Source of the DNA: Nymphaea colorata
Lineage: Eukaryota > Streptophyta > Magnoliopsida > Nymphaeales > Nymphaeaceae
DNA length: 64,000 nucleotides
NCBI RefSeq assembly: GCF_008831285.2
Contig: NC_045144.1
Location: 4,084,268 to 4,148,267, forward strand
Direction: 5' to 3'
The notes under the pieces were generated by a model. That model did no database searches and had not been told where the DNA came from. It saw nothing but the letters and a program-made list of their open reading frames with translations. Every line of letters begins with the position of its first letter. Position 1 is the first letter of the stretch. This document shows positions 3,146 through 64,000 of the stretch, one piece after another. The translations under genes and the position numbers were made by a program.

Positions 3146-6100
3146 TCTCGCCACACCCACACCCAATTTTTTTTGGAACTTGATGCATCCCTCACCACCT
3201 GCTACACCCGCACCCCGCACCCATGTGACATAGCTAATCAGTAAATAATTCACTATGCAAGACAGTAGTCCGGGTAGCACTGTCCAGATATATGGACAGG
3301 TAAGAACACTTACCCATAGAGCACACTTGTATATCAAACAAGTAAAATGCACATTAATTAGTAAGAGAAGCCCACAATCTGAAGAAATAATAGAAAATGC
3401 AAATTAACTTACTTCCTTCAATGCAACCTCTCCTCCCCCTGCCCTCTCTCTCTTTCACTCACAAACACACACTCTTTTCTCTCTCAACGAAAAAAATTCA
3501 TTATCAATGTGGTTCAACTTTCAAATAGTTGCAGTGCATGTTACAATGTTCCATACAGCAAGAGAATAACTGAATAAGACTGTAGCATACCAGATCTGCA
3601 ATATTTCCAACGCACTCCCCTTTAGCAGTGACATCACCAATATTTTCTCCTTTTGCAAAAGCTTTGTATATGGGGGCCCTTGTTGATGTCGATGTAACAG
3701 CAGCAACATTCTGCAAGAAACATTTATTAGGCAATACACGAACCCCAACAAACTGAATCCAACTAAAACTGAAAAAAGCTGTCAACCTTAGCAATGTTAG
3801 CTGCACAAGCAAATGGCAGAAAGAGATGAGGTACTGCAGTAGTTGCCAGCTCTATACCAGCACCCAGCTCCATCAAGAGGTCGCCCGCAAACCGAAGCTG
3901 CCACAGACATCTGACACCTCAAAATGCATATTTCAGAAATATCAAAAGCAACTCAAAAAGGAGAGTTTACATCCTTGCTTACTTGCTTAAGATCATAATC
4001 AAATTTCTTTCCTTGGCGTGAAAAGAGCATCTTTCCTAAACGGCCTGCACCATCCTGTGGAACATCAAAAGTTCTTACAAAAAGGGTATACAGAAGACGG
4101 AAGCTAGCAATTCCATAGAAGAACCTCCAACAAAAAAAAAAGGAAGCACTTCATATTACGAAAGTGGCAAAAGGAAAAAATGCACAGGAAGAAAACAGTT
4201 TTTAATGCATTAGTGTTGGTTTATTTCTTAAGCTGGTAGAAGACGTGGTACCAATATGATTGTTAGGAAGAAAGGGGAAGTGGGGGTAGAAAGGGTTTTC
4301 TGTGAAAGATTTTACCTTGAGAACCCAGTTGACAGCCACAGCTGCAGATGCAGCGCCATTTCCAGACATCCCAACAGAATGCAACAATGATCGTGTCGTG
4401 AAAACACCCATAGCTCCACCAAAAAAGTGCTGCAGAAAGTATATCTCATTAGTACGAAAGTGATAAGCAGAAAACGAGATGAACAAAAGCATATTCTATG
4501 TATGTGTGCAATTGTTGCCTAACCTGCCATAGGCGCAGAATTTCTAAGTGAAAAACAATCACTTGAAGCAATTTATGATAAAAAAGATTGAAGAAATTTA
4601 ATAATGAAATGCAAAATTCAGGTTGCTGGAAAAGCTTGTGATGCTTATAACAAAGTTCAGATGATTATCATCGTATTGGCACATACATAAAAAGGAACAA
4701 TTATCATACTTGGGGCTTCTGCTTTAGGCAACAACATACCTTCAAAGCTCTCCATTTCATGTAAGGTACATAAGAAGGGGAGACACTATCTGGAAATCCT
4801 TCAGGCACGACATAAGACCTGATAAAAGAAATTAGCTCCTGCAACAAAGAACTTTGAATCAGATAATTCTCATGCAAAACGCAACAACAAGAAGAACGCA
4901 TTTCCACTGAATGAGAAATCGTGTGATTTTTTATGCACCAGTATTAGTTAGAAAGACATTTTTCCTTGTTTTCCTTGCTGGAAGCTTCTATGCGTTGGAA
5001 GGACCAACTTTTGCCGGAAGCTTTTGTCAATTCAGATTTGCATTCACTTTATATGCATGTCTATCTTAGGTTTTTTCTTTTACATAATCAATCCATAGGA
5101 AGCACCATGTTAACGAGAAAGAGTTGAACCATCTCTGACAGAACAATTATGACAAATATAGCTCATGATGACGTAGTCATGTTGAGGTTCATAGGAAATT
5201 AGCTATTTGCCCATTTCGTTAAAGAATGGACTTTGCGGCAAAACAATCCACCATATAAAGCATAGTGACTCTCAGAGCGTCCATCATATAATGCAACATC
5301 TGACTTCAAAAGGAAGGTTTACGTGTTGCAAATGAATCTCACAGCACAAGAAATCGATCAATATCTCCTTCTTTTTTAAAAAAACACAAGAGTAGAGCAA
5401 AATGGCAATTAATTGGAACCCAGCAAATTTCAAGCAATCTGACTCACTATGTTCAGACCTTACTTCTGTCATATTATGGCAGATTCCCTTAAAAACATGC
5501 AATATGAACGTTGTTCGGAAGCCCACGGATCCGGTCAAACGTCACATGGAAATCTTCAAACTTTAGTTCCAAAGTCGGAATTAAAACTGAGACATGTTTC
5601 AGAGGCTCAAATGAACAGAGTAAACCAACTCTCCTAGAGCGTTGAAGGATGAGTGAAGTTCAAACAAAATTAAACAGCATTAATATGGATTTTCAAATTT
5701 TGAAGCAGAAATGCACATGGAACATAAAAACTTGTAGCAACTACAGACAACCATAACTTCAAAATTAAGTTTTAAAAAAAATGGAAGAAAAGGTATGATG
5801 ACGACGATGCTGCCTTTCATTTCAATAGGAGAAATGATTCAACAACCCAAAAGCGAAAAAAAAAAAAACTTTTTTTAAAATATGAAAAAGGAAAGAAAAG
5901 AAGGAAGGTTGGGAAACAATCAGGAGAAAATAAGGGAAGAGCTCACATCGAACGGGTTCTTGGGGGTCTGGAGAGCGACGGCATGCATCGAACGGCTGAA
6001 GCTCCCGGATGGATCCGCCTCGACTACGTAATTCCATCTGCGACCGTCCAATTCCTCGGAGCAGATCACTCTGGCCTCCGGCCTCGACTCGCTGACAAGG

Positions 6101-6709: not shown

Positions 6710-6889
6710 TATTTCTAGAACAAGAAAACTTACTTTCCTAACTATATTACTCTATATTTCTAGAACAAGAAAACTTACTTTCCTAACTATATTACTCTAT
6801 ATTTCTAGAACAAGAAAACTTACTTTCCTAACTATATTACTCTATATTTCTAGAACAAGAAAACTTACTTTCCTAACTATATTACTCTA
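6710..6889. repeat. Minisatellite: four identical 45-bp units
   Basis: The unit starting TATTTCTAGAACAAGAAAAC occurs four times head to tail with no visible mismatch between units. It lies about 430 bases upstream of the RUS6 start codon. 45 is a multiple of three, so one frame stays open across the array, but nothing else suggests coding. Confidence 0.95.
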
Positions 6890-11696: not shown

Positions 11697-12112
11697 TGTT
11701 CTCTTGTGTCGTGTTTGTATAGTCATCCTTTGCTTTAGTTGTATTTGCTTTACTTATGTTGAGTCTTGGTGTAAGCTCGAACGTTCACCAGTGTCGGAGC
11801 ACCCTCCCAAAACCGGCCCCAAGTGTAAGATTGAGATTCCTTGTTTTGGATGGTCGGCATGGGAATTCTGTAAGCGGGTTCGACCATCCTTTGTAAGTAA
11901 AATGTAAAGCTTACTTGCTTTCTCTCGTGATGTACTCAATTGTTTAAGTGAATATATTGTGAGTTTTCTTTTCACACTCTTTGTGTATTTTGTGCCTTAA
12001 GTTTTCGAAAAAGCATTCAAGTGATTTGTGCCCACTTTAACATGGTGAAGGCTTGCGGCTTACTGGCGAGAGTTTGTCGCGCCGCACAGTCCAAAAGAGT
12101 TGGCCCGTGACA
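11697..12112 (+). repeat. 5' LTR of the Ty3 element
   Basis: Starts TGTTCTCTTGTG and ends GGCCCGTGACA. It aligns end to end with 16291-16706 at the same length of 416 bp. Confidence 0.93.
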
Positions 12113-13242: not shown

Positions 13243-16200
13243 ATGGGTGCCGCCCAGACGATCAATGTTGCCCAAAGTCGCGCAGTATCTAGCAGTATGG
13301 TGAACAAGGAGTTGATGTTCCTATATGTCACTCTAAATGGAATATATATTGTTGCGATGGTAGACTCCAGGGCAACGCATAACTTCGTCTCAGGAGAGGA
13401 GGCCGAGCGAGTGAGATTGAAGTCTGTACCGCAACAGAGGACCCTTAAAACGGTAAACTCTGAAGTCAGGTCCATCCTAGGAGAAGCAAGGGGTGTAACA
13501 GTTCAGATTGAAGGTTGGACGGGAGTCACCAACTTCTCCGTAGTACCCCTGGATGATTTCAAGGTGATTCTTGGGATGGAGTTTGTTAGAGGCTAGAATG
13601 CATTGATGTTGTCAAAGTTCAACACATTGACGTTAATGGGTGCAGACCAATCCCATACAGTGTCTTGTCACTCCACCAAAAGCAAGTCTCAGCCGATGTT
13701 GTCGGCAATACAGCTGAAGAAGGGCGTGCGTCATGGGGAACAAACATTCCTCATAGCCGTATGTCTACAAGAAGATGACCCTCAACCGAGAGTCATTCCC
13801 CCAGGGCTAGCCCCTGTCCTGAAGCAGTTCGAGGGAGTGATGCCCCCCGAGTTGCCCAAACGCATACCTCCTAAGCATGAGATTGATCAGGAGATTGATT
13901 TTGTTCCCGGAACCAAGCCACCAGCTATGGCCCCCTACAGAATGGGACCAACCGAACTGAAGGAGCTGTGAAAGCAGCTTGATGACATGCTTGAGTCAGG
14001 GATCATCCGTCTCACTAAGGCACCCTTCAAAGCCTCTGTATTGTTTCAGACAAAGCATGATGACTCCAAGAGACTCTGTGTGGATTACCGTGCTTTGAAC
14101 AAAGTGAAAGTGAAAAACAAGTATCTGTTGCCTTTGATTGCAGACTTGTTCGACCAGTTGGGCAAGCGAAGATCTTTTCAAAGCTAGACCTTGGTTCCGG
14201 CTACTGGCAAGTCAGAATCATAGAAGGTGATGAATCAATGACAGATTGCGTCACCCACTATGGAGCGTATCAGTTCCTAGTCATGCCATGCGGATTGACG
14301 AATGCCCCCGCGACTTTCTCGACCCTCATGAACAAGATATTCTACCCATACCTTGACAAGTTTGTGGTAGTCAACCTTGATGACATTGTAATCTTTAGCA
14401 ACAGCCTAGAGGAGCACGTTGATCACTTGAAGACAGTGTTTCAAGTACTCAAACAAAATGACCTTTATGTAAAGAAGGAAACGTGCTTCTTTGGCCAAGG
14501 AGAGATCAGCTTCCCCAGCTATATTATAAGAAATGGCCAGCTGCGAATGGATCTGGAAAAGTGAAAGTTGTCGAAGACTAGAAGCCACCCTCGAATGTGC
14601 CTAAATTGTGGTCCTTTCTTGGGTTGGTCAATTACTATCAGCGGTTCACCATGGGGTACTCATTGATAGCAGCGTTTCTCACTGACCTACTAAAAAAGAA
14701 TCGATTCTGGATTTGGACTCAGTCTGCCCAAGATGCCTTTGAAGGCCTGAAGCATGCCCTTGTACAAGAGTTCGTTCTCAGATTGCCAGATCATTCAAAG
14801 CCCTTTGAAATATACATAGATGCCTCAGATTTTGCCATCGATGGGGTACTAATGCAAGAAGGTCATCTGATCACCTATAAGAGCCAGAAACTGAAGGACC
14901 CTGAGAAGCGGTACACAGTGCATGAACAGGAAATGACCGCCATTGTGCATTGCTTGCGCATATGGAGGCATTACCTACTGGGGGCAGAGTTCGTTGTCAA
15001 GATGGATAATGTGGCCACAAGTTACTTCAAGACTCAGAAGAAGTTAACTCCGAAGCAGGCTCGTTGGCTGAAATTTTTAGCGGAGTTTGATTTTGCTTTG
15101 GAGTACAAGGTTGGTAAGACCAACGTGGTAGCAGATGCATTGAGTTGAAAGGCAAAACTTGCAACCTCTCGAGCGGGGACCTCCGAAGCCCAATTGGAGA
15201 GTGCGCTCCTCGAGCGGGTTCGTGAAAGAATGCAACAGAACTCATCGGCCCAACACGTGGTTGCCTTGGCCGAAGCGGGGAAGACTCGAAGATTTTGGCT
15301 GCGAGATGGATTGCTCCTCACCAAGGGCGGACGCGTTTTCGTGCTGAAGTGGGGTAATCTCCGGCGGGAGCTAACAAATGAGTGCCATGAGTGCCACGAT
15401 ATGCTTTGGGCTGGCCATCTAGGCTAGGAGCGGACTCTGGCCCTTCTCAAACGGGGGTATTATTGGCCCCAGATGCGCGACAATGTGGAGGCGTATCTGA
15501 AGACCTGTCTCATCTACCAGCAGGACAAGGAGAGTAACCAGAAACCTACCGGCCTGCTTGAGCCTCTTCCTGTTCGGAGCGTCCATGGGAGAGCATCTCC
15601 ATGGACTTCATTGTGAGTCTACCCAGAGTTGATGGCTACAACTCTATCTTCTTTTTGTGGATAGGTTTTCTAAGTATGTCACATTCATTCCAATTACGAA
15701 GGAGAGCCCAGCGGAGAAGACGACAGAGATGTTTGTGAAAAACATTGTGAAGTACTGGGGCGTGTCGAAGAGTATTGTAAGCGATCGCGATGCTCGCTTC
15801 ACAGGCAAGTTTTGGCGTGAAGTATTTCGGTTGTTTGGCTCAGACTTGTTGTTTTCCACAAGCTTCCACCCGTAGACTGACCGCCAGACCGAACACATCA
15901 ATGCCTTGTTGGAACAGTACATGTGGCACTTTGTTAGTGTCAACTAAAAAAACTGGGTAAAGCTGCTCGTTGTTGCCCAATTCTATTACAACTTGCAGAA
16001 GAGCGAGTATTCAGGTCACAGCCCCTTCGAAGTAGCCACCGGACAACAACCGTTGATGTCTCACACTCTTGCTGCCCAAGAGAAGGGAAGACTCAGCTTC
16101 GCCTACCAGATCCTTCGACACAAAGTCAACTACCTTAGCGAACCGAAGCGATACTTGGTCAAGTGGGTAGATGAAGATCAACCAACATGAGAGTATGTCT

Positions 16201-16290: not shown

Positions 16291-16706
16291 TGTTCCCTTG
16301 TGTAGTGTCTGTATAGTCATCCTTTGCTTTCGTGGTATTTGCTTTGCTTATGTTGAGTCTTGGTATTAGCTCGAACGTTCACCTGTGTCGGAGCACCCTC
16401 CCAAAACCGGCCCCAAGTATAAAATTGTGATTCCTTGTTTTGGATGGTTGGTATAAGAATTCTGTAAGCGGCTTCGGCCATCATTTGTAAGTAAAGTATA
16501 AAGCTTACTTGCTTTCCCTCGTGATGTATTCAACTGTTTAAGTGAATATATTGCGAGTTTTCTTTCCACACTCTTTGTGTATTTTGTGTCTTGAGTTTTC
16601 GAAAAAGCGTTCAAGTGATCTGTGCCCACTTGAATACAGCGAAGGCTTATGGCTTACTGGCGAGAGTTTACCGTGCCGCACGGTCCGGAGGAGTTGGCCC
16701 GTGACA
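16291..16706 (+). repeat. 3' LTR of the Ty3 element
   Basis: Starts TGTTCCCTTGTG and ends GGCCCGTGACA, 416 bp, and is followed by the TAATT target duplication. By eye it differs from the 5' LTR at about 44 sites, roughly four transitions per transversion. Confidence 0.93.
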
Positions 16707-40410: not shown

Positions 40411-42920
40411 TTAGGAGGATTTGTGGCTCTCGATCAGCTTCAAAGCAGTGTTAGCATCAGGAAGAGCAGGAATGGCGCCTTTCTGTGTTGTGCAGATGGC
40501 TCCACATGCATTTGCAAACTGCAGGGCGCCCCTCAGTTTCTCTTCATTCTGCACGGAAACAGCCATATGATTCAGTATTCCTCTTCTTTCTTTTCCTTTT
40601 CGCCTTGCTTCGCAGCGCAGGCCAAGAGGGGAAAAAAGGGAAAAAAAAAAGAGGCATCAGTTAAGCACCTGAACGAGATTGTCGAAGTCCTTGCTGAGTT
40701 GGACCAAGAGAGAACCAACGAAGGCATCACCGGCACCAGTTGTATCAATAGTCTTTACTGAGAATCCGGCTACTCTTCCTTTGAAATTCTGTAATATAGA
40801 GCAGATGTTACAACATGGATCAGTCCCATTAGGCCTTTGTTTAACTAGAAGAACGATGCGGAGAAAAAAAAAAGAACAAATTAAAGACCTTGGTGAAGTA
40901 TCTGCAACCCTTCTCCCCATCGGTGACTACCATCAATTTCAACCCGTCATGCCACAGAGAAAGAACCACATCTTCCTTCTCGGAGTCTCCACCAGTCAAG
41001 AATGAAACCTCATCATCACTAACCTGCAAAGTTACCACACTGGAACCCTCATGAAAATGAAATTATGCAGTAACTATAGCAGAAAATGTTGAAGGAAGCC
41101 TTCAATATCTTTTTCTCAATCAAACCTTAAAGAGCATAAAAGACCAGAAGAGTTGCAATTAATTTTAAGATATCAAACGTGAAACCAGTCGACACTTTTA
41201 AACAGTAACAAGGTTATGCCCTTCTCTTAGATCTCAAAAGCATTGTTTAGCGACAGAACCAAGAACCAGCAAAAGAACATTTGTTTTTTAATAACTCCAT
41301 TCTTCTAGACGGGGAAAAGATCGATTTATCTCATGGGAAATGATAAAGACATGGATCAAATTCAAGTTCGTTACCTTGATGAAATCTGCCTCATTCCAGA
41401 TGCTCTTAATACCTTCACGCGCAGCATCAGCAGAGGGCCAAAGGGGCAGCCTCACATTTGGATCATAAGAGAGCAGCAATCCAGCTTGCCTGGCAGCCTT
41501 CATGGCAGCAAGATGCGCTGATCTGCAGGGCTCAGAAATCAAACTAATTGAACCGTAGTGGAAGATCCTACCGCTGGTGATCAAACCTAGATTGAGTTCA
41601 GATTCCTTCAACAACATATCAGCACTAGGATTTCTGTAGAACATGAACTCCCTTTCACCATTCTTCTTCAAGGTAACGAAAGCCAGTGCTGTTCGAGCAT
41701 GTTCGTCGAAGCAAACGCCACTGTGATCCACGCCATTGATCTTTAGGATGTCCACCAACATGCGGCCAAATTCATCATCGCCAAACTGCAAACAAAATAA
41801 AACTTCAGAGGAACTGAAGAGCCATGGCGAAAAGAAATGAAACTTGCGTAGAAAAGGGGGATCTTTCCTCGGGAAGAAACTGATTTTCAGATCTAGTAAA
41901 TTTTCCATGTTACATTTTCGAAATATGAACACGATTAGTAGATCAACAGAAAATGTAATACAACAACGGATCATACTCCATTGCAGCGTAAAATGTGTAT
42001 AAATCAATGAAAAGGAGAAAACACTAGATTATATATATAATAAAGGAGGCCTTCATATTAAAAGGAGTGATGAAAGTCAAACAAGGAAAAGAAGGACCGG
42101 GGCCAACAAACGCAAGCAAGAAGCAAAACGAAGACGTCCAAGCGCCAAAGCAAGTAAAAGAAGATGGTGCATATGAATGGTTCAAGAAACAGAGGAACTG
42201 AGAAGAAGAAAAAAAGATGGAAAGCCAAGAATGTTTTCCATGTATCTCTCACTCGGTGATCTCTCCAAGCGATGCCAGCTTAGACATGAACAGAAGACAA
42301 GCTATCGGCCAAACGCACAGCAGACACGTAGGAAGAGTCTGATCTATGTAAGCAGGGAACCAAAAAAAGGGAGGGCAAAAGGAAAGAGAGCAAAATGGAA
42401 GTCATCCAATATAAGAAAAAAGCGCACATGATACGAACTTGAGAAACACCAAGATCTGTCAAGCTAAAGACGAAGCTGATGACGGAGTTTAAGAAAGGAA
42501 AAATAAAGAGACGAAAAAAAAAACAGAGCAACCAGACCCAGAAAGATGGATCTTGTAACCAAATATCGATAGAGAAGCCTCCATCCCCAAAGCAAGCACT
42601 AAAATCTGGAAAAAAAAAAAAATCCTAGCCATCCACATGACAAGGTCCCGTGAATCTAAGATCTCAAGAACCACCAAGATCTAATCACATGGATAATAGG
42701 AACAGACAGAGGGAGAGGAGATCCATCATCCAACCTTGCCAACGAAGGCAGATTTGCCACCAAGTTTGGTGATAGCCACCGCAACGTTGGCGGGTGCACC
42801 ACCGGGGGCCTTGAGGAAGCCGGAGGATTCGGCCAGTGAGAGACCAGCCACGTCCGGCACGAAATCTATCAGCATCTCGCCGAAGCAAACGATCAATGGG
42901 CTGCCCTCCGAGATCGTCAT
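40411..42920 (-). CDS. FRK: Fructokinase (pfkB family), 5 exons
   Basis: Exons on the minus strand: 42920-42735, 41785-41375, 41023-40889, 40788-40669, 40548-40411. They join in frame to 329 codons plus TAA, the usual length of plant cytosolic fructokinases. The enzyme phosphorylates fructose with ATP to fructose 6-phosphate, feeding sucrose-derived carbon into glycolysis and starch synthesis. Seen motifs: [13 protein letters not shown] near the start, the pfkB signature region [28 protein letters not shown], substrate-lid residues NPSADMLL, and the catalytic/anion-hole signature [11 protein letters not shown], where the second Asp is the general base. There is no transit peptide: [15 protein letters not shown] starts directly, so cytosolic location is inferred. 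The start is the ATG at 42920. A partial copy of exon 5 lies at 49409-49520. Confidence 0.95.
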
Positions 42921-43062
42921 TGTTTCTTTCTCTTCTCTCACTCTCTCTCCTACGCAACAAAAAAAAAAGCAGAGAGCCCAAGAAAGAAAGCCCCCGACGA
43001 GAACAACGGACAGAAAAAGCCCAAGATCAGAGGTCCGAGGCCGCGCCTTCTCCCAACGTTTG

Positions 43063-43070
43063 TTTAAATA
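43063..43070 (-). promoter_or_regulatory. Possible TATA box of fructokinase gene
   Basis: The minus strand reads TATTTAAA here, about 145 bases upstream of the ATG, just beyond a GC-rich stretch. Spacing fits a leader of about 110 bases. Inferred from sequence. Confidence 0.4.
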
Positions 43071-45365
43071 GAGCAGACAGCCTTCTCTTTCTTCCTTTTT
43101 CTATATTTTTAATTTTCTTTTTTCCTTCTTCTTCTTCTTCTTCTTCTTGTTTCAAGATTATTTCCATCTACATTTCCATGAATCTTCTCAGATCTGGAAT
43201 GCTGACTCACTCTACCTAATAAAGATAAAAAAAGTCTTTACCTAATAAAAGATTTTAGATATGCTCAGACTCCTCATGAAAACGAGAATGGAGGCAGATG
43301 TTTCGTATTTATTTTCTAAACTTTGCTACTTCATTTTTCTTCAAGCAGTCTGCTTGACCATTGCAGAACGTGCATGCTACTTAGCGAGTTGGGTCTCCGT
43401 ATAAACATGTCCCTGCTTATACATTTTACACTGATGAAAGTATGTTTTATTATACATTGGTAGTTGGAGCTCCTTCCTTCCGTTCTTTTCAAGTTTGAAG
43501 GACAGCGACACGATGCTCCCTTCGTCCCCACTCTTCAATCAACCGTCCTGCGCATTAAGTGGGGCCTCTCTCCATCCTTGATTCCTTTCCCGTCCGTCTT
43601 TCGAAGAGATCTTAATGGGCTGTTGTAGCTGCGCCATTAAATTCAGTGTCTGCCATCACTACCAGTATCTTATCAGTTGCTAACTCCACCAATCGGCTGA
43701 ATTTTACAAGAGGGCCGATTTTGATCATGTCCGTCGATTCATCATTGTAGTTTTTATATCATATCGATCGATGTTTTGAATACAGGAAAAAAACAATAAA
43801 AAAAAGTTAACACAAATATTTAAAAGAAAACTTGCAACCAAGCTCAAAGAAAGTCCTTTCAAGTGGGTGTTGATATTGACAACGCTGATCAGACTCAGGG
43901 TGAAATTTTGGGCCGGATTCAGGCATGGCATCTTGCTTCAAGAAAGTCCAATAAATTGAAGAACCGGATTAGATTCTGATACAAACAGGTTCTGCTTCGG
44001 GTTTAAATAATTATTCGATTGAAAAAATGGCATTAGATTCTGCTTCAGTTGGGTTTAGATGTGAGACCCAAATCTTCTTATCGTTTGGAGACAAGGGGGC
44101 TGGTATATCGTGGATATGGTTCATATTCAAATCTGGATCCCATTGCAAAAAACTGGGCATAAAATTCATTTATGATCCAACAAGATGCTTTATCTGGATC
44201 ATCCCACGAACTGGATCTGATCCAATTGGGGGCTCCCTCTCCGAGCCCATGTACCGCGGAGAAAACGATGACGACGACGCACGTGAACAGAGTTGGCTAA
44301 GGCCGTTTGTTGGATTTGGATTTGGATTTGGATTTGGATCTTTCCTTTTTTTTCTCCTTCCACAAGTGCCCTTATCTGTAGCTCGACCACATGAAACTCA
44401 AACGGATCAAGGGATCCGAGATTATGATGTCCACACAAACCTAAGGACCGCTTTTGTGGACCCAGCTTGTAATTGTATCCATTCCAAAGATAGATCCAAA
44501 TGTTAAATAGCAATTTAAGCTTCTTTTTTTTTTCTTCTTCTTCTTCACATGAGTTTTAGATCGAGATATGTAAGCGGATGAGATTTCAGTCCGATCCAGA
44601 TTGAATTCTACGTGCGTGAATTCATATTCTGGTTCCAATTTAGATCTCACTGTATTAAAACAAAAAATCGGATCTCACTAGCATAAGATACGACATTTAT
44701 ATGTAATTGGGTCGGAGAATCCAAGATTTACGGTAAATATAAGCTCGCACAGTCAGTTTTCGTGGCTTATAACCAACGAACAAAAACTAACTTTTTGGAG
44801 GATATTAGGATTGTTAATGGGTTGGATTTGAATTGGATGTACCCTTTGATCATATCAGATTTATTAGATGTTCATGCTTCATATATTTTGGATTTGATTA
44901 TGAATGAGCAAAGTATTATTTCATACCCAAATCTAGTTTTAATCTGAATCACATGTTAAAGCCGACTTTCAAAACGTATGAATATTAGTTATAAGAAAAT
45001 TTAACTCCCTATTCAGGCTTATTAACTGATCAAAAAATTAATTTAAAAACGAAACTTGAATCTGAAAATATATTGTTTCCTAAATCTAAATCTGATCTGT
45101 TTCCATAATCAAACTTTAACTTTTTTATCCATATCTGACTTATTTAAAATAGTTTAATCAATTACTTGATCCGAAAATAATTCATTGACATCCAAAAATA
45201 AATCCTTTGCTATTGTTTGTTTTGTTTCCTTTTGTTCATTCAACTGATGATTTTGATTCGTCGAGAGCAGTTGCTTCTTGGATGCCCTTGAAAGCTGCAA
45301 TTTCCTTTTGTGGATCAAAATGACGTGACTGGGGAGTCTCTTTTTTTACAAACAAGTCTACAAAA

Positions 45366-51066: not shown

Positions 51067-52333
51067 ATGGGGAGCTCCTGTATGGCAGCAGTACCTCCTC
51101 TGAGAATGGCGTCGAAGGCGCAGATGCTACTGCTGCTACTGCTAGTGGTGTGTCGGATGGAGTGGGGGTGGGCCTTCGAGTTCACTGTCGGAGGGGACAT
51201 GGGTTGGGCCATTCCTCCTGCCAATGACACCGACATGTACAATCAGTGGGCTTCCAAGAACAGGTTCCAAGTAGGCGACACCCTCCGTGAGTTCTCTCTC
51301 TCTCTCCTCTCTCTCAACAGTTTCATATTCACGTACAGAACATATGACATACTTTACAGCATGTCTCTGCTTCAACATTTCTGTTCTTTTAGCCAAAAAC
51401 CAACGTGAAAATCAAGACATGTAAGTTGGTAGTCGATAGTGTTTCCAAAATCACGTTAATTATGTCACAAACACTCCGCCTGCTCAATGTAAAATTCACT
51501 TTCAGTTTAAGAAAAGTGAAGAAGCGTAGCTGAAATGGCGCCTTGACACCTTCCTCAACCATCACACATCTCTTGGAAGATGTTGCAGGCTGTGCTGGGT
51601 AGCCATCTGAAATTGAGTTTTCCAGCAGCCGGGTACCGCTGTGGTCGCCATCAATTTACTGCTAGTCTAGTCCTTGTAGGCTTTGATGTTTATTTCCACG
51701 TTACAAATTCAAAGCCTCTGCTTTAATTAATTGCCGCCATTAATCGATTGAAGGTCTTGTCCTTGTTACAACGCAGAATGAAGTATTTCCTCGACTGAAA
51801 ACATAAAACATTAGCTGAGATGAATTACTTCGTCTAAGGACAGGCTCTTCAATGTTCTAGCTTTCCTTCTTTTCTTTTCTTTTTTTCCGTGCTCTTTTCT
51901 TTTGCTGGTAGAGTTCTTCGTATGAATTAGAGTGAGAAAAAATGAAAGGGAGAACCGGGGAAGGTTACTGACAATGTTCCAACTCTTGGTAGACTTCAAG
52001 TACAAAAAGGACTCGGTAATGGTGGTGAGCGATACGGATTACGACAAGTGCAACTCCTCCCACCCACTCTTCTACTACAACAACGGGAACACCGACTTCA
52101 AGATCAGCCAGTCGGGCCTCCTGTACTTCATTAGTGGCGTTTCCGGCCACTGCGAGAAAGGGCAGAAGATGATTGTCAAGGTGCTGAGCGGGCCAGCCTC
52201 TCCATCCCCTGGGGGGAGCCCTTCGACGCCCTCCCCACCTGGCTCCAACGCCGACGTCGCCGGCCTTCTCCCAACGTCCGCCACCGTCTGCTCCCTCGCC
52301 GCTTCCATCCTGGTGGCGCTTGTCGCACATTAA
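51067..52333 (+). CDS. Early nodulin-like protein (phytocyanin family, plastocyanin-like domain)
   Basis: Exon 1 is 51067-51286 and exon 2 is 51993-52333, joined in frame (CTC C + AC TTC) to 186 codons plus TAA. An N-terminal signal peptide has the hydrophobic run MLLLLLLVV. The plastocyanin-like domain runs from FEFTVGGDMGWAIP to GHCEKGQKMIVKVL, with DKC and GHC as the disulfide pair. A Pro/Ser-rich arabinogalactan-like linker (PASPSPGGSPSTPSPP) follows, then a C-terminal hydrophobic tail typical of a GPI-anchor signal. The usual His before the DKC segment is replaced (KKDSVMVV), the second ligand Cys is Ser (YFISG) and the axial ligand is Gln, so copper binding is unlikely. This is normal for early nodulin-like proteins, which act at the plasma membrane or cell wall. 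A later ATG at 51106 would also leave a full signal peptide. Confidence 0.92.
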
Positions 52334-58989: not shown

Positions 58990-60801
58990 ACACATTTAGA
59001 GCCAATAATATCACAATTTTAAGGAGGATCAACCAATTCTCAGGTACCACGCTGTAAGAGAGTATGCATCTCATCTTGCATGGCTTTTCGCCATTTACAG
59101 TCTAGTAATGTCTGTTGATGACTAGTTGGTACAGTATGAACTATCATAGGCTCATAGCATAAAGAAACTGTAGTAAGTTGTTATCAAGGTGGTCAGTGGA
59201 AACAAATTATGAGATAGGATGCATAGTACACTGTCTCTTGCCTTTGCGCAGGGCTATAGGCAAGTCCTGAGAAGGATCAATGTCAGGTATACTTACTTCA
59301 ATGGAGATCACATCCCAAAAAGATTCTGATGGTCGACCATACATCCCAAAAAGATTCTGATGGTCGACCATGAGAGGGATCCTGCCGACGAGTGTATATC
59401 AATGGAGGGTCCTGAAACCTATTCATAGTCGGAGTAGGAGAGGGAAAAGACGGCAACAGGATTGGAGGGATAGGTAGAGGAATAGGACATGGCATCTCAG
59501 ATGACACAGAAGTAGGACTGAGACTCAAAGAAAGTGACATCCGCACTGATATACTCTTTGCGAGTTATCGGATCAAAGCACTTGTACCCTTTTTGGTTTC
59601 GAGGATAGCCAATGAATACACACTTAATGACTTGAGCAGCAAGTTTATCACGTTTAGGCCCAAGGATGTAAACAAAACAGGTACAGCCAAATACTTTTGG
59701 TGCAACAGGAAGTAAGCTTCGATTGGGATAAACAAGTTTAATCGGTATTTTGTTGTCAATAGAGGATGACGGTAAACGATTTGTCAGGTAACAAGGCATG
59801 AGTATGGCATCACCCCATAAGTATGCAAGTATATGATTAGAAGTTGCCTATGTTTTCGTTCGACAAATTCATTCTATTGTGAGGTATGAGGACATGTAAA
59901 TTGAGGAGAGATACCATTTTCAGCACAAAAGGTCATTAAGATAGATGATTTGAACTCAAGAGCATTATCAGTGCAAATACACTTAACCAGAGAACCAAAC
60001 TGAGTTTTTATTTCAATAATCATATTTTTGAGAATAGGTACTACTTCAAACCTTTCTTTCAAAAAAAATACCCAACTAACTCGAGAGTAATCATCAACAA
60101 CAACCAGAAAATACGTAAACTTAGATCGGTTAGCAACCTTGCTAGGACCCCACACATCAACATGAAGAAGATCAAACAACCCTTGACTTGATGGACTAAG
60201 ACTCGAAGGAAAACTACTACGAGTATTCTTGCCAAGTTGAGAGGCCTCACACTGAAACGACTCTGGGACTGAAAGGTGAGGTAGAATGGAAAGGAGCTTG
60301 GACCCTGAAGGATGACCAAGCCTGAGATGCCACTAAAAGGGTGTAGAATCTGATGTAGAAGATGTAGCAGCAAGAGCCATAGGGGCTGACAGGATGTAGA
60401 CGCCCCCTTTTTCATAGTCACCACCAATAGTCTTCCTAGTTTGTAAGTCCTAAAATGAGCATGCACCAGGGTAAAAAATAATGCGACAGTGTAAATCAGT
60501 AGTCAACTGTTTAACAGAAAGCAAATGGGATGGAAACTCAGGAGCATATAAGACATGTGAAATGATCATAGACTGAGAAAGTTTCACATCTCCATAACCC
60601 AATATAGGTGACATTCTACCATCTGCAATTTTGACATGACGTGGCTGAGAGAATCTATGCAACGTAATGAACAAACTAGGTCTACTGCAGAAATGTCTCG
60701 ATGCTCCTGAGTCAATAATCCAAGAGATACTTGAATCAGGCGTGGATGTACCCGTAGAGAGAGCTCAATCAATCAAAGTAGTGGAAGCTGAAGCCTGTGA
60801 G
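58987..60801 (-). pseudogene. Copia retrotransposon, protease-integrase-RT start, broken by stops
   Basis: In minus-strand order: the protease active site WIIDSGASRHFC near 60720, the PEFPSHLLSVKQLT region, the GAG-pre-integrase WHLRLGHPSGS, the integrase core (LHVDVWGPSKVANRSKFTYF, VVVDDYSRVSWVFFLKE, CTDNALEFKS), then PKVFGCTCFVYI and CVFIGYPRNQKGYKCF, and finally the start of the RT. Stops interrupt it at several points, for example a TAG near 60450-60470 where Gln fits and another just before WHLRLGHPS. A 31-base tandem duplication lies at about 59309-59370. Its 5' part is cut by the hAT element at 60802, and its RT is cut at KCVF (58987) by the truncated LTR. Confidence 0.9.
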
Positions 60802-60811
60802 CAATGTTATC

Positions 60812-61009
60812 CGTATCGTACGATACGAACGCGTATCGTACGATACGTATCGTCCGTATCAACGTTTTCGATACGTTACACCTATTAAATACGATACGCG
60901 TACGTATCGTGCGATACGGTGGGCGTATCGCACGATACGCGTACGTATCGTGCGATACGGTGGGCGTATCGCACGATACGTGCGATACACCCCCGTATCG
61001 CACGATACG
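60812..61009. repeat. Array of seven 16-bp palindromes at the 5' end of the hAT element
   Basis: The palindrome CGTATCG-YR-CGATACG occurs at 60812, 60832, 60903, 60924, 60944, 60965 and 60994 (first base of each), with further half-sites between. Two 41-bp units (from 60903 and 60944) are tandem duplicates. Subterminal repeats of this kind in plant hAT elements such as Ac are known binding sites of the transposase. Here the same role is inferred for the BED zinc finger of the encoded protein. Confidence 0.85.
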
Positions 61010-61021
61010 GGAGTAAAATTT

Positions 61022-61047
61022 AAAAAGGGGCCGTCGGGCCCCTTTTT
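61022..61047. repeat. Perfect 11-bp inverted repeat (hairpin) in hAT 5' region
   Basis: AAAAAGGGGCC (61022-61032) and GGCCCCTTTTT (61037-61047) are separated by four bases. It lies between the palindrome array and the transposase start. In RNA it would form a strong stem with a U run, and its role is unknown. Confidence 0.85.
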
Positions 61048-61333
61048 GCTTCTTATTCTCAAACCGACGCTCCTCTCTCTCTCTCTTCTTGTTTCTCAAC
61101 ACTGCGAGGGACGTGGGAGGGAGAGATTTTCTCCATTGCATCAAGATTTGCCGGTGAAGAAGCTTCATTTCTCGTTGTGGGGAGTCTTGGGACGGTGGGA
61201 AGCTTGGAGAAAGAGGGTTTTTTGGTTTTTAACACCAAGAAGGTAAAAAATAACTCATTTTTGCCGTTGAATCGTTCATTTCTCTTATTTCCTACATTTA
61301 TTTGTATGTTTTTACTTGTTTTGTGAAGATATA

Positions 61334-63851
61334 ATGTCGGATCCTGCATGGCAGTGGTGTACAAGGGTGAATCCCAAAGATAGATTAAGAGTTAAGTGCA
61401 ATTATTGTAAGCAAATCATATCAGGAGGGATTTCTCGCTTTAAACACCATATAGCTGGTACACACAGCGATGTGGCTGCTTGCAATGGCTCCCAAGAGAT
61501 CCCATTGCCAGCGTATGTAAAGCACCAGTGTCAGCAGCTTCTTGATGCAGTGAAAGCAAGTAGGATTGAAAAGGACATGGAAGATGCGGAGGAAGGATAT
61601 GGGGACCCACATGAAGGAGAAGAAAGTGAAGGTGAATATGTTCAACTTGAACAAGAAGATGTTGGTGTCAGTTTGGGAACAACTAAAGGGAAAGGCATCA
61701 TGCATGGAGGTGGTTCTTCTGCAACTGCAACCAGAAAAAGAAGAGGTGCAAGTATAAGTTCAGTTTCACGAGGACGTGGCAGAAGTCAGGGTCGTACTGG
61801 TGGTGGTAGAGTACCTACTATGAGGTCGAGCAATATGTCTGGTTCGATCAAGAATTTTTTTCCCAATTATACTGCTGCTGGTGCTCAGCCTGAGATTCGT
61901 ATAGCCATGCAATCAAAGGATATTATTGAAGCAGCAGATGAAACCATAGGAAGGTGGTTCTATGATGCATCCATTCCCTTCAATGCAGCAAACTCTTATC
62001 ATTATCAGCCTATAGCAGATGCGATTGCTAGTGTAGGGCGAGGGTATAAAATGCCCTCTTTTCATAAATTGCGAGGTAAAATTCTCAACAATATAGTTAG
62101 AGATGTGAAGACATATTGTGATGAACTAAAATTGAGTTGGAAAGCTACAGGATGCAGTGTAATGGCAGATGGGTGGACAGACATCAAGAACAGAACATTG
62201 GTAAACTTCCTTGTATATTGCCCTCTTGGTACTATGTTCTTAAAATCTGTTGATTTGTCTGATACTCCGAAGACTGCTGATGTGTTGTTTGGGATTTTTG
62301 ATAAAGTTATAGAAGAAGTTGGGCCTGAAAATGTCGTACAATTTATCACTGATAATGCAGCAAATTATAAAGCTGCAGGTGAAATGTTAGCAGCACGATA
62401 TGGGACATTTTATTGGAGTCCATGTGCTGCTCACTGTGTAAATCTTATGCTTCAGGATCTTGGTGAAAGGGATGATATGAAGTTGACAGTTCACAGATGC
62501 CAAGAAATCACGAAGTTTATTTACAATCATGCTTATGTCTTGAATTTGATGAGGAAATTCACAAATGGGGCTGAATTGATTCGACCTGCACAAACACGGT
62601 TTGCTACAAATGTTTTGACTGTGCAGGGTATAGTCAAGCAAAGATCTTCTCTCAGGCAGATGTTTTCAAGTGATGATTGGGCTGCATATCCACATGCCTA
62701 TAAAAGAAAGGCTACGACAGTTGTGGATACCATCTTCGATGTTGACTTTTGGGAATCATGTGTGCACTTATTGAAGATTTGTGTACCTCTAGTGAAAGTC
62801 CTCAGATTAGTTGATAGTGAAGATAGACCTTCTATTGGATATTTATACGAGTCTATGGATAGAGCCAAGGAGGCCATTAGAGATAATATGAAGGGAAAAA
62901 AGAAGTTGTACATGCCTATATGGAAGATTATAGATGAAAGGTGGTCTGGACAACTTCATCGCCCACTTCATGCGGCAGCCTACTACCTAAATCCTGCCAT
63001 TAGATATCTTCCCACTTTTAAGAAGGACAGAGAGGTCGAGTATGGCATGTTGGATTGCATTGATGTATTAGTAAGTGATAGTAAAGAACAAGACGCTATC
63101 CATATGTCGATCAACAAATATGATACGGCTTCTGGTACCATGGCGAGAGACACAGCAGTTCGATGCAGGACAACTATGCGTCCAGGTATTAGAAAAAGAA
63201 ACTTTATACTTTTTGTTCTTTAGCACTTATTCTACCTTCTCATATATTTATTTCTGACAACATTTTTACTTTCCATCTGTTATTAGATTTGTGGTGGGAA
63301 AGGTTTGGGCTTGATTGCCCAGAATTAAGGAAGCTTGCAATTAGAATCCTCAGTCAAACATGTAGTGCAACTGGATGTGAAAGAAATTGGAGTGTATTTC
63401 AGCACATCCATAGTAAGAAGAGGAATAGGCTGGAACATAAAAGGTTGAATGACCTTGTTTATGTTCGTTATAATATGAAGTTGAGACAAAGGTAAACATT
63501 TGTTTTGTTATACAAGAATATCAAATTCTAATATATATTTTAATCTCTAACAATTTGTTAATTTTTTCTCTTGTTAGGCAACTAGAAACAACATCTACGA
63601 GGAAGCATCACAATCAATATGATCCTATCTTCATTGACCATTTTGATATATTAGATTCTTGGGTTGAAGAAGAACCAGCTGCAATACTTGATGAGGACGA
63701 TCTTGATTTTTTGAATGTTGAAGGAGCGGCAGAGATTGTTGAAGAAGGAGAGGCTGGGGGGGAGCAATGGAATGTTGGTGACATTCCATTTGCAACAGAG
63801 GGGATAGAAGAAGAAGTTAATGAAGGAAGTGAAGATGATGATGAAGAATGA
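61334..63851 (+). CDS. hAT family transposase with BED zinc finger, DUF659 and dimerisation domain, three exons
   Basis: Exons 61334-63185, 63287-63491 and 63578-63851 join in frame to 776 codons plus TGA with no internal stop. The start is the first ATG in frame (61334), just after a possible acceptor (TTTTGTGAAG) of a leader intron whose donor may be at 61242. Order: a BED-type zinc finger at about residues 10-55 (CNYC ... HHIAGTH); an acidic segment; a basic RG-rich, NLS-like stretch (KRRGASISSVSRGRGRSQG); the DUF659 catalytic part with VMADGWTD and ITDNAANY (the two Asp positions) and SPCAAHCVNLML; the C-terminal hAT dimerisation domain with WWERFG, SATGCERNWS (the conserved Glu-x-x-Trp area) and NRLEHKRLNDLVYVRYN; and a Glu/Asp-rich tail. 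It should cut and paste its own element in the nucleus. Confidence 0.92.
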
Positions 63852-64000
63852 AGATGATGATGCAAATGACGATTGACGATGCTTTTTGTTTTGAGTTTTG
63901 AAAACTATGTCAATATGTTCTGAGTTTTGACTTCTGAACTTATGAATTGTGATGTAATTGAATACTCTTAGGTTGTTTAGTATGTTATTTTGTTTTTTGA

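Follow-up and report, generated by a model that had tools for sequence, protein, structure and literature searches.

A complete hAT transposon with a palindromic left end in a decayed Copia element of Nymphaea colorata

The element, its transposase and the sequence around it

The window, by which we mean the whole 64,000-nucleotide stretch of Nymphaea colorata DNA that was analysed, corresponds to C7:4084268-4148267 of an assembly of 407,766,735 bp in 783 contigs. Its gene content is plant-like, with plastocyanin-like, pfkB, Copia and Ty3-type pieces. At its downstream edge a hAT transposon is inserted into the remains of a Copia element (Table 1). The original prediction had placed the transposon at 60802..64000. 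The start was borne out; position 64000 is the edge of the window and not the end of the element. Sequence fetched past this edge gave a length of 3,463 bp (C7:4145069-4148531, plus strand), with the 3' tip at the equivalent of position 64264. The terminal sequence reads ...GACAGTGATAACATTG and is directly followed by CCTGTGAG (equivalent of 64265-64272), an exact copy of the octamer in front of the element. Thus, both the complementary 3' end (GATAACATTG versus CAATGTTATC at the start) and the downstream 8-bp repeat that had been expected beyond the window are present. The inverted tips at 60802 and 64264 match perfectly over 10 bp, not over the 12 bp originally quoted. No second copy of the element was seen within the 64-kb window.

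Table 1. Coordinates of the hAT transposon, its parts, its host sequence and nested family members (TSD, target duplication; TIR, inverted tip)
Feature	Position	Strand	Remarks
Decayed Copia polyprotein pieces, more than one frame	59500..60793	-	Host of the hAT insertion
Left 8-bp TSD copy, CCTGTGAG	60794..60801	.	Exact repeat flanking both sides of the element
hAT transposon, first 3,199 of 3,463 bp	60802..64000	+	Runs on to the equivalent of 64264
Left TIR, CAATGTTATC	60802..60811	+	Right tip is the exact inverse, GATAACATTG
Subterminal array, seven exact CGTATCGNNCGATACG palindromes, proposed sites for BED-finger pairs	60812..61009	+	Role proposed from Hermes (PMC10368747)
Two perfect 41-bp units	60891..60972	+	Within the left array
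Candidate 5' leader intron, 86 bp, GT-AG, T 50%, GC 27%	61243..61328	+	From borders and composition only
Coding exon 1 (BED finger, residues 3-44; DUF659, residues 241-392)	61334..63185	+	
Intron, 101 bp, GT-AG	63186..63286	+	
Coding exon 2 (most of the hAT dimerisation domain, CERNWS motif)	63287..63491	+	
Intron, 86 bp, GT-AG	63492..63577	+	
Coding exon 3 (acidic tail; stop TGA 63849-63851)	63578..63851	+	
Nested insertions	L027/L054 (C14) at element position 3256; L039 (C11) at 3164		

Three coding exons with GT-AG borders make up an uninterrupted transposase frame of 776 codons, in agreement with the original prediction. Judged by its borders and composition, a further intron is likely within the 5' leader, so that the gene would have four exons. 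Pfam assigned zf-BED (PF02892, 1.2e-6, at the N-terminus), DUF659 and Dimer_Tnp_hAT (PF05699, 2.3e-13, residues 606-681, at the C-terminus) to the protein, each above cut-off. Together with the motifs DGWT (279-282), TDNAAN (from 339), CAAH (364-367) and CERNWS (from 648), this accounts for the BED finger, both Asp boxes, the CxxH box and the dimerisation Glu/Trp motif that had been recognized earlier. The BED and dimerisation domains, the two Asp with CxxH, the 8-bp TSD and the 10-bp TIR identify the element as a hAT.

The best solved relative of the transposase is that of Hermes, from the housefly (E 3e-7). D279, D340, C364/H367 and the Glu motif align with Hermes and are the predicted catalytic residues. 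Trp319 of Hermes acts in hairpin formation; in a weak alignment, its position is occupied by Phe423. Since the Trp of a Hermes-like insertion domain is replaced by Phe, we class the element as hAT only and not as Hermes-like. Three relatives from the same genome (64-68% identity), chosen among 150 because they scored high and had a long open frame, all carry Phe here as well. Phe423 therefore looks like a feature of the lineage, and we dropped the idea that it is a defect. One of these relatives (L066) has lost the second Asp and has Asn instead. DUF659 stretches that exceed the cut-off number at least 150 in the genome, since each of the 150 scored among 1,131 candidates did so; copies of the element's own family are included. 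Simulated under neutrality, with indel and CpG rates assumed, a frame this long stayed open at 1% divergence with a probability of 0.048. An AlphaFold model of exon 1, made without alignment, had a mean pLDDT of 39.3 and was not used.

The Copia sequence had been described as dead, and it is broken in several frames with its domains in separate pieces. Pol_BBD, the integrase core and SH3 scored above cut-off and gag_pre-integrs below it (26.2 vs 28.4 bits); a protease-like DSGAS was found by eye, and two of the five Copia pieces tested matched no domain. In the three-frame translation, read by eye, the ~1.3 kb from protease to integrase is interrupted by no fewer than three stops and one frame change. 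The host is far more decayed than the hAT, and by this relative decay the order originally proposed stands, with the hAT arriving later. A perfect 31-bp tandem duplication lies within the decayed Copia (59310-59371).

Elsewhere in the window, direct repeats of 416 bp (11697-12112 and 16291-16706, 89% alike) flank reverse transcriptase and RNase H pieces (14064-15145) and are probably the LTRs of an old Ty3-type element. There is also a perfect minisatellite of four 45-bp units without mismatch (6710-6889), pieces of a pfkB-family sugar kinase (41291-43100, minus strand; fructokinase-like by eye) and a piece of a plastocyanin-like (phytocyanin) gene (51926-52330, plus strand). Three of the eight other window pieces tested for domains matched no family. 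Neither a tRNA nor an Rfam family at gathering score was found in the window.

Copies, age and selection

We studied the best-scored 40 of 836 first-look candidates in the genome, the window copy (L015) among them; the sample consequently favours young, complete copies. A one-alignment rule set aside 11 of the 40 as not full length before anything was counted (L040, L045-L054), of which L046-L049, whose left end formed an alignment of its own, may be complete. Of the 29 full-length copies, 27 have a perfect 8-bp TSD, and all 27 are different. Of the remaining two, L041 has 4 mismatches and intact tips, whereas L044 has 5 mismatches and lacks the left tip.

All four splice dinucleotides are kept in each of the 29 copies. 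The frame reaches the homologous stop in ten copies, is clearly broken in 15 and has a shifted acidic tail in four more (L020, L028, L029 and L037), counts that depend on seven consecutive G in exon 3 (63756-63762, placed by eye). Copies of both subfamilies described below appear frame-shifted at this run, which could reflect slippage or long-read sequencing error.

A search of the element's own genome for near-identical copies, as had been proposed, yielded three pairs. The window copy and L016, a copy on the same contig whose frame is open as well, are separated by 4 substitutions over 3,442 aligned bases. L016 has a left array shorter by 21 bp, so the two copies are unlike in array length. 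The pairs L028/L030 and L027/L035 differ by 2 substitutions in 3,481 and 3 in 3,470 bases, respectively (substitutions only; identities that count gaps come out lower). Plant substitution rates are 7e-9 to 1.3e-8 per site and year, and at these rates the L015/L016 pair is about 45,000-83,000 years old and the other two 22,000-62,000 years. In a tree, the copies fall into two subfamilies, each of which contains a young pair. As each subfamily contains a pair less than 0.12% divergent, amplification reaches near the present. Recent mobility of the element is well supported, and the element may still be mobile, as the original prediction had it.

The element could nonetheless be intact but silenced, having moved at some point in the past 100,000 years or so in a family that is now inert, and would then be young without being mobile. 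We give this explanation only a little under an even chance. Plant genomes usually methylate high-copy DNA elements, and the broken frames in 15 of 29 full-length copies, with the shifted tail in four more, agree with an inert family. The pairs below 0.12% divergence in both subfamilies bring amplification close to the present and argue against it, as do the frame-intact copies found in both.

In comparisons with the window copy, dN/dS was 0.16-0.79 in 27 of 28 cases; the exception was L018 (3.43). The values below 0.8 are in keeping with selection acting along a line of functional source copies. A ratio below 1 would likewise be expected of a domesticated host gene, whose open frame reflects host function and not mobility, and such domestications of plant hATs exist (DAYSLEEPER; PMC3499209). 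For the window copy we rejected this very improbable explanation: it is contradicted by a multi-copy family with tips and perfect TSDs at 27 different targets. That the near-identical copies are assembly duplicates and not separate insertions, as differences of only 2-4 substitutions in an assembly of 783 contigs might suggest, is refuted by TSDs that differ within pairs (CCTGTGAG at L015 vs GTACAGCG at L016, both on C7 and about 6.4 Mb apart; GTTATAAC at L028 on C13 vs GCCTTTAC at L030 on C1).

Two family members are inserted into other family members, both with 8-bp duplications. The 40 bases across the nested empty sites are found with at most five mismatches in 27/29 and 26/29 copies. The exact 27-mer across the empty site occurs in no uninterrupted copy for L027 and only in L042 and L043 for L039. 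Among the 27 TSDs, position 2 is T in 15 (binomial 0.005) and position 7 is A in 16 (0.002). These two positions lean towards the Ac/Hermes-type target pattern nTnnnnAn, as quoted for Hermes, but both are matched in only 7/27; the strongest bias, G at position 1 (15/27; 5e-5), lies outside this pattern.

Ends, tips and short relatives

The elaborate 5' end that had been pointed out earlier is an array of CGTATCGNNCGATACG palindromes. All seven exact palindromes of the window fall into it, together with 17 of the window's 18 CGTATCG/CGATACG heptamers. As single-stranded DNA, the 5' end folds far better than shuffled sequences (z -10.3). The first palindrome covers element bases 11-26. Across the 29 full-length copies, the number of palindromes ranges from none (L042, among the most diverged copies) to the seven of the window copy, and the commonest arrangement has five, at bases 11, 31, 122, 143 and 172 (10/29). 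In all 29 copies, the only sites at the right end are half-sites that share one orientation and lie in the terminal 91 bases; the 170 terminal bases examined contain no palindrome. At the left end of Hermes, two BED domains are reported to bind a quasi-palindrome in bases 11-27, and its two ends are asymmetric (PMC10368747). This analogy supports, but does not prove, a Hermes-type docking logic with a different motif at the left end of our element.

The genome contains 307 exact occurrences of the 17-base left tip CAATGTTATCYGTATCG, compared with 0 for a reversed-pattern control. Chance does not explain such a pattern, given these numbers and the concentration of heptamers in the array. There are 74 occurrences of the right tip of the autonomous element and 138 of a second right tip, CGCCTTTTATAACATTG. 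We paired tips by exact matches on contigs C1-C4 only, which hold 94 of the 307 left tips. Seventeen of these paired with the first right tip (15 at 3.4-3.5 kb) and 29 with the second at 432-811 bp. One further pairing with the second tip spans 7,001 bp, and 47 of the 94 had no exact match to either right tip.

We inspected ten left tips, namely the first eleven listed minus one already studied, which are not a random sample. Five have a 3' end backed by a perfect TSD, the short elements measuring 432-784 bp. The 3' end of L063 has a single TSD mismatch, and that of L060 is doubtful (one mismatch, unlike tip); for three of the ten, no TSD-backed 3' end was found. L055-L059 and L063 (all on C1) are short hAT relatives that share the left end of the window element. 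Their right tip is another one, namely CAATGTTATAAAAGGCG in inverted form or a variant close to it. Over the left end, two short elements match the window element at ~71% identity and have five exact palindromes each. The others keep fewer (two in L058; one each in L057, L059 and L063; none in L060), so that only some of the short elements point to constraint on the array as a whole.

The short relatives may be mobilised by the element. We consider it possible, and rather doubtful as yet, that this is a currently active two-part hAT system, in which the left end, an array of perfect palindromes read by pairs of BED fingers, was recombined onto another right end to give passengers of 0.4-0.8 kb. 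If so, the two ends would be interchangeable modules that one transposase can pair, and the requirements for end asymmetry in hATs could be tested in natural end swaps.

Outside this genome, searches of viral contigs with exons 1 and 2 gave no confirmed relative. The left-tip pattern occurs at five loci in viral contigs (L002-L006). A tblastn search of plasmids and phages with exon 1 gave no match. In the genome contigs searched, a 17-residue match to exon 2 in a Microbulbifer contig (L001) was taken as chance. The element's sequence strings were not found in the literature searched. Among the matches listed, those on water lily and hAT did not deal with the subject, and those of a further search did not name Nymphaea; the main text of a survey of MITEs in 207 genomes is likewise without Nymphaea (PMC12550479). 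As far as these limited literature searches can tell, this is a new family of a known kind.

Interpretation and relation to known hAT elements

Taken together, our findings indicate, with a probability of about 0.9, that a complete autonomous-type hAT, from the plant lineage that bears DUF659, inserted very recently into a Copia element that was already dead. The reading is carried by the gene, the tips, the target duplications, the recent copies, the selection on the frame and the asymmetric ends. The element was originally called intact, young and autonomous. It is intact in that all 3,463 bp are present, with matching tips, an exact TSD and an unbroken frame. It is young by its near-identical copies, such as L016, and of the autonomous type in having a complete transposase gene of its own, the whole frame of which is kept in 10 of the 29 full-length copies.

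By this reading, the gene would be expressed and spliced, and the resulting transposase would consist of a BED finger at the N-terminus, a DDE core of the RNase H-like type and a tail for dimerisation. BED fingers would bind the DNA in pairs at the left-end palindromes and singly at the right-end half-sites, and so bring both 10-bp tips to the core. The core would then cut out the element, leaving hairpins on the flanking DNA, and join it into an 8-bp staggered target. Copies may still move in this way at present.

Intact, young, multi-copy plant hATs are useful as tagging tools and are a live source of mutation. The family is also a natural test of subterminal repeats, with palindromes numbering from none to seven and short relatives in which a similar left end is joined to a foreign right one. 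The biology of the element is that of known hATs, so the surprise is moderate.

Tag1 of Arabidopsis is near 3.3 kb in size and has several introns and tips beginning CAATGTT, and the window element resembles it in size, in having several introns and in the start of its tips. Short subterminal repeats bound by the transposase are described for Tag1 (PMC3143072), which is a further likeness; their motifs, AAACCC and TGACCC, differ from ours, and the two elements were compared by description. Also by description only, the Hatvine elements of grapevine are similar in being multi-copy hATs with short TIRs (8-23 bp), 8-bp TSDs and some intact ORFs, and differ in that DUF659 is not mentioned in the main text on them (PMC2528002). 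The maize Ac/Ds system, in the outline given in PMC3260210, combines autonomous elements with shorter dependent ones that have common tips and some subterminal repeats. Full-length elements alongside shorter ones with a common end are likewise found here, whereas our short relatives share the left end only.

With Hermes, the window element has in common the BED finger, the DDE core, the dimerisation tail and the 8-bp target duplication, and also a palindromic site, proposed here to serve paired BED domains as in Hermes, from left-end base 11 and the asymmetry of the ends (PMC10368747). Unlike Hermes, with its motif AAGT/AAGC, it uses CGTATCG/CGATACG in up to seven palindromes, has introns and a DUF659-type core, and carries Phe in place of Trp319 in a transposase of low overall sequence similarity (E 3e-7).
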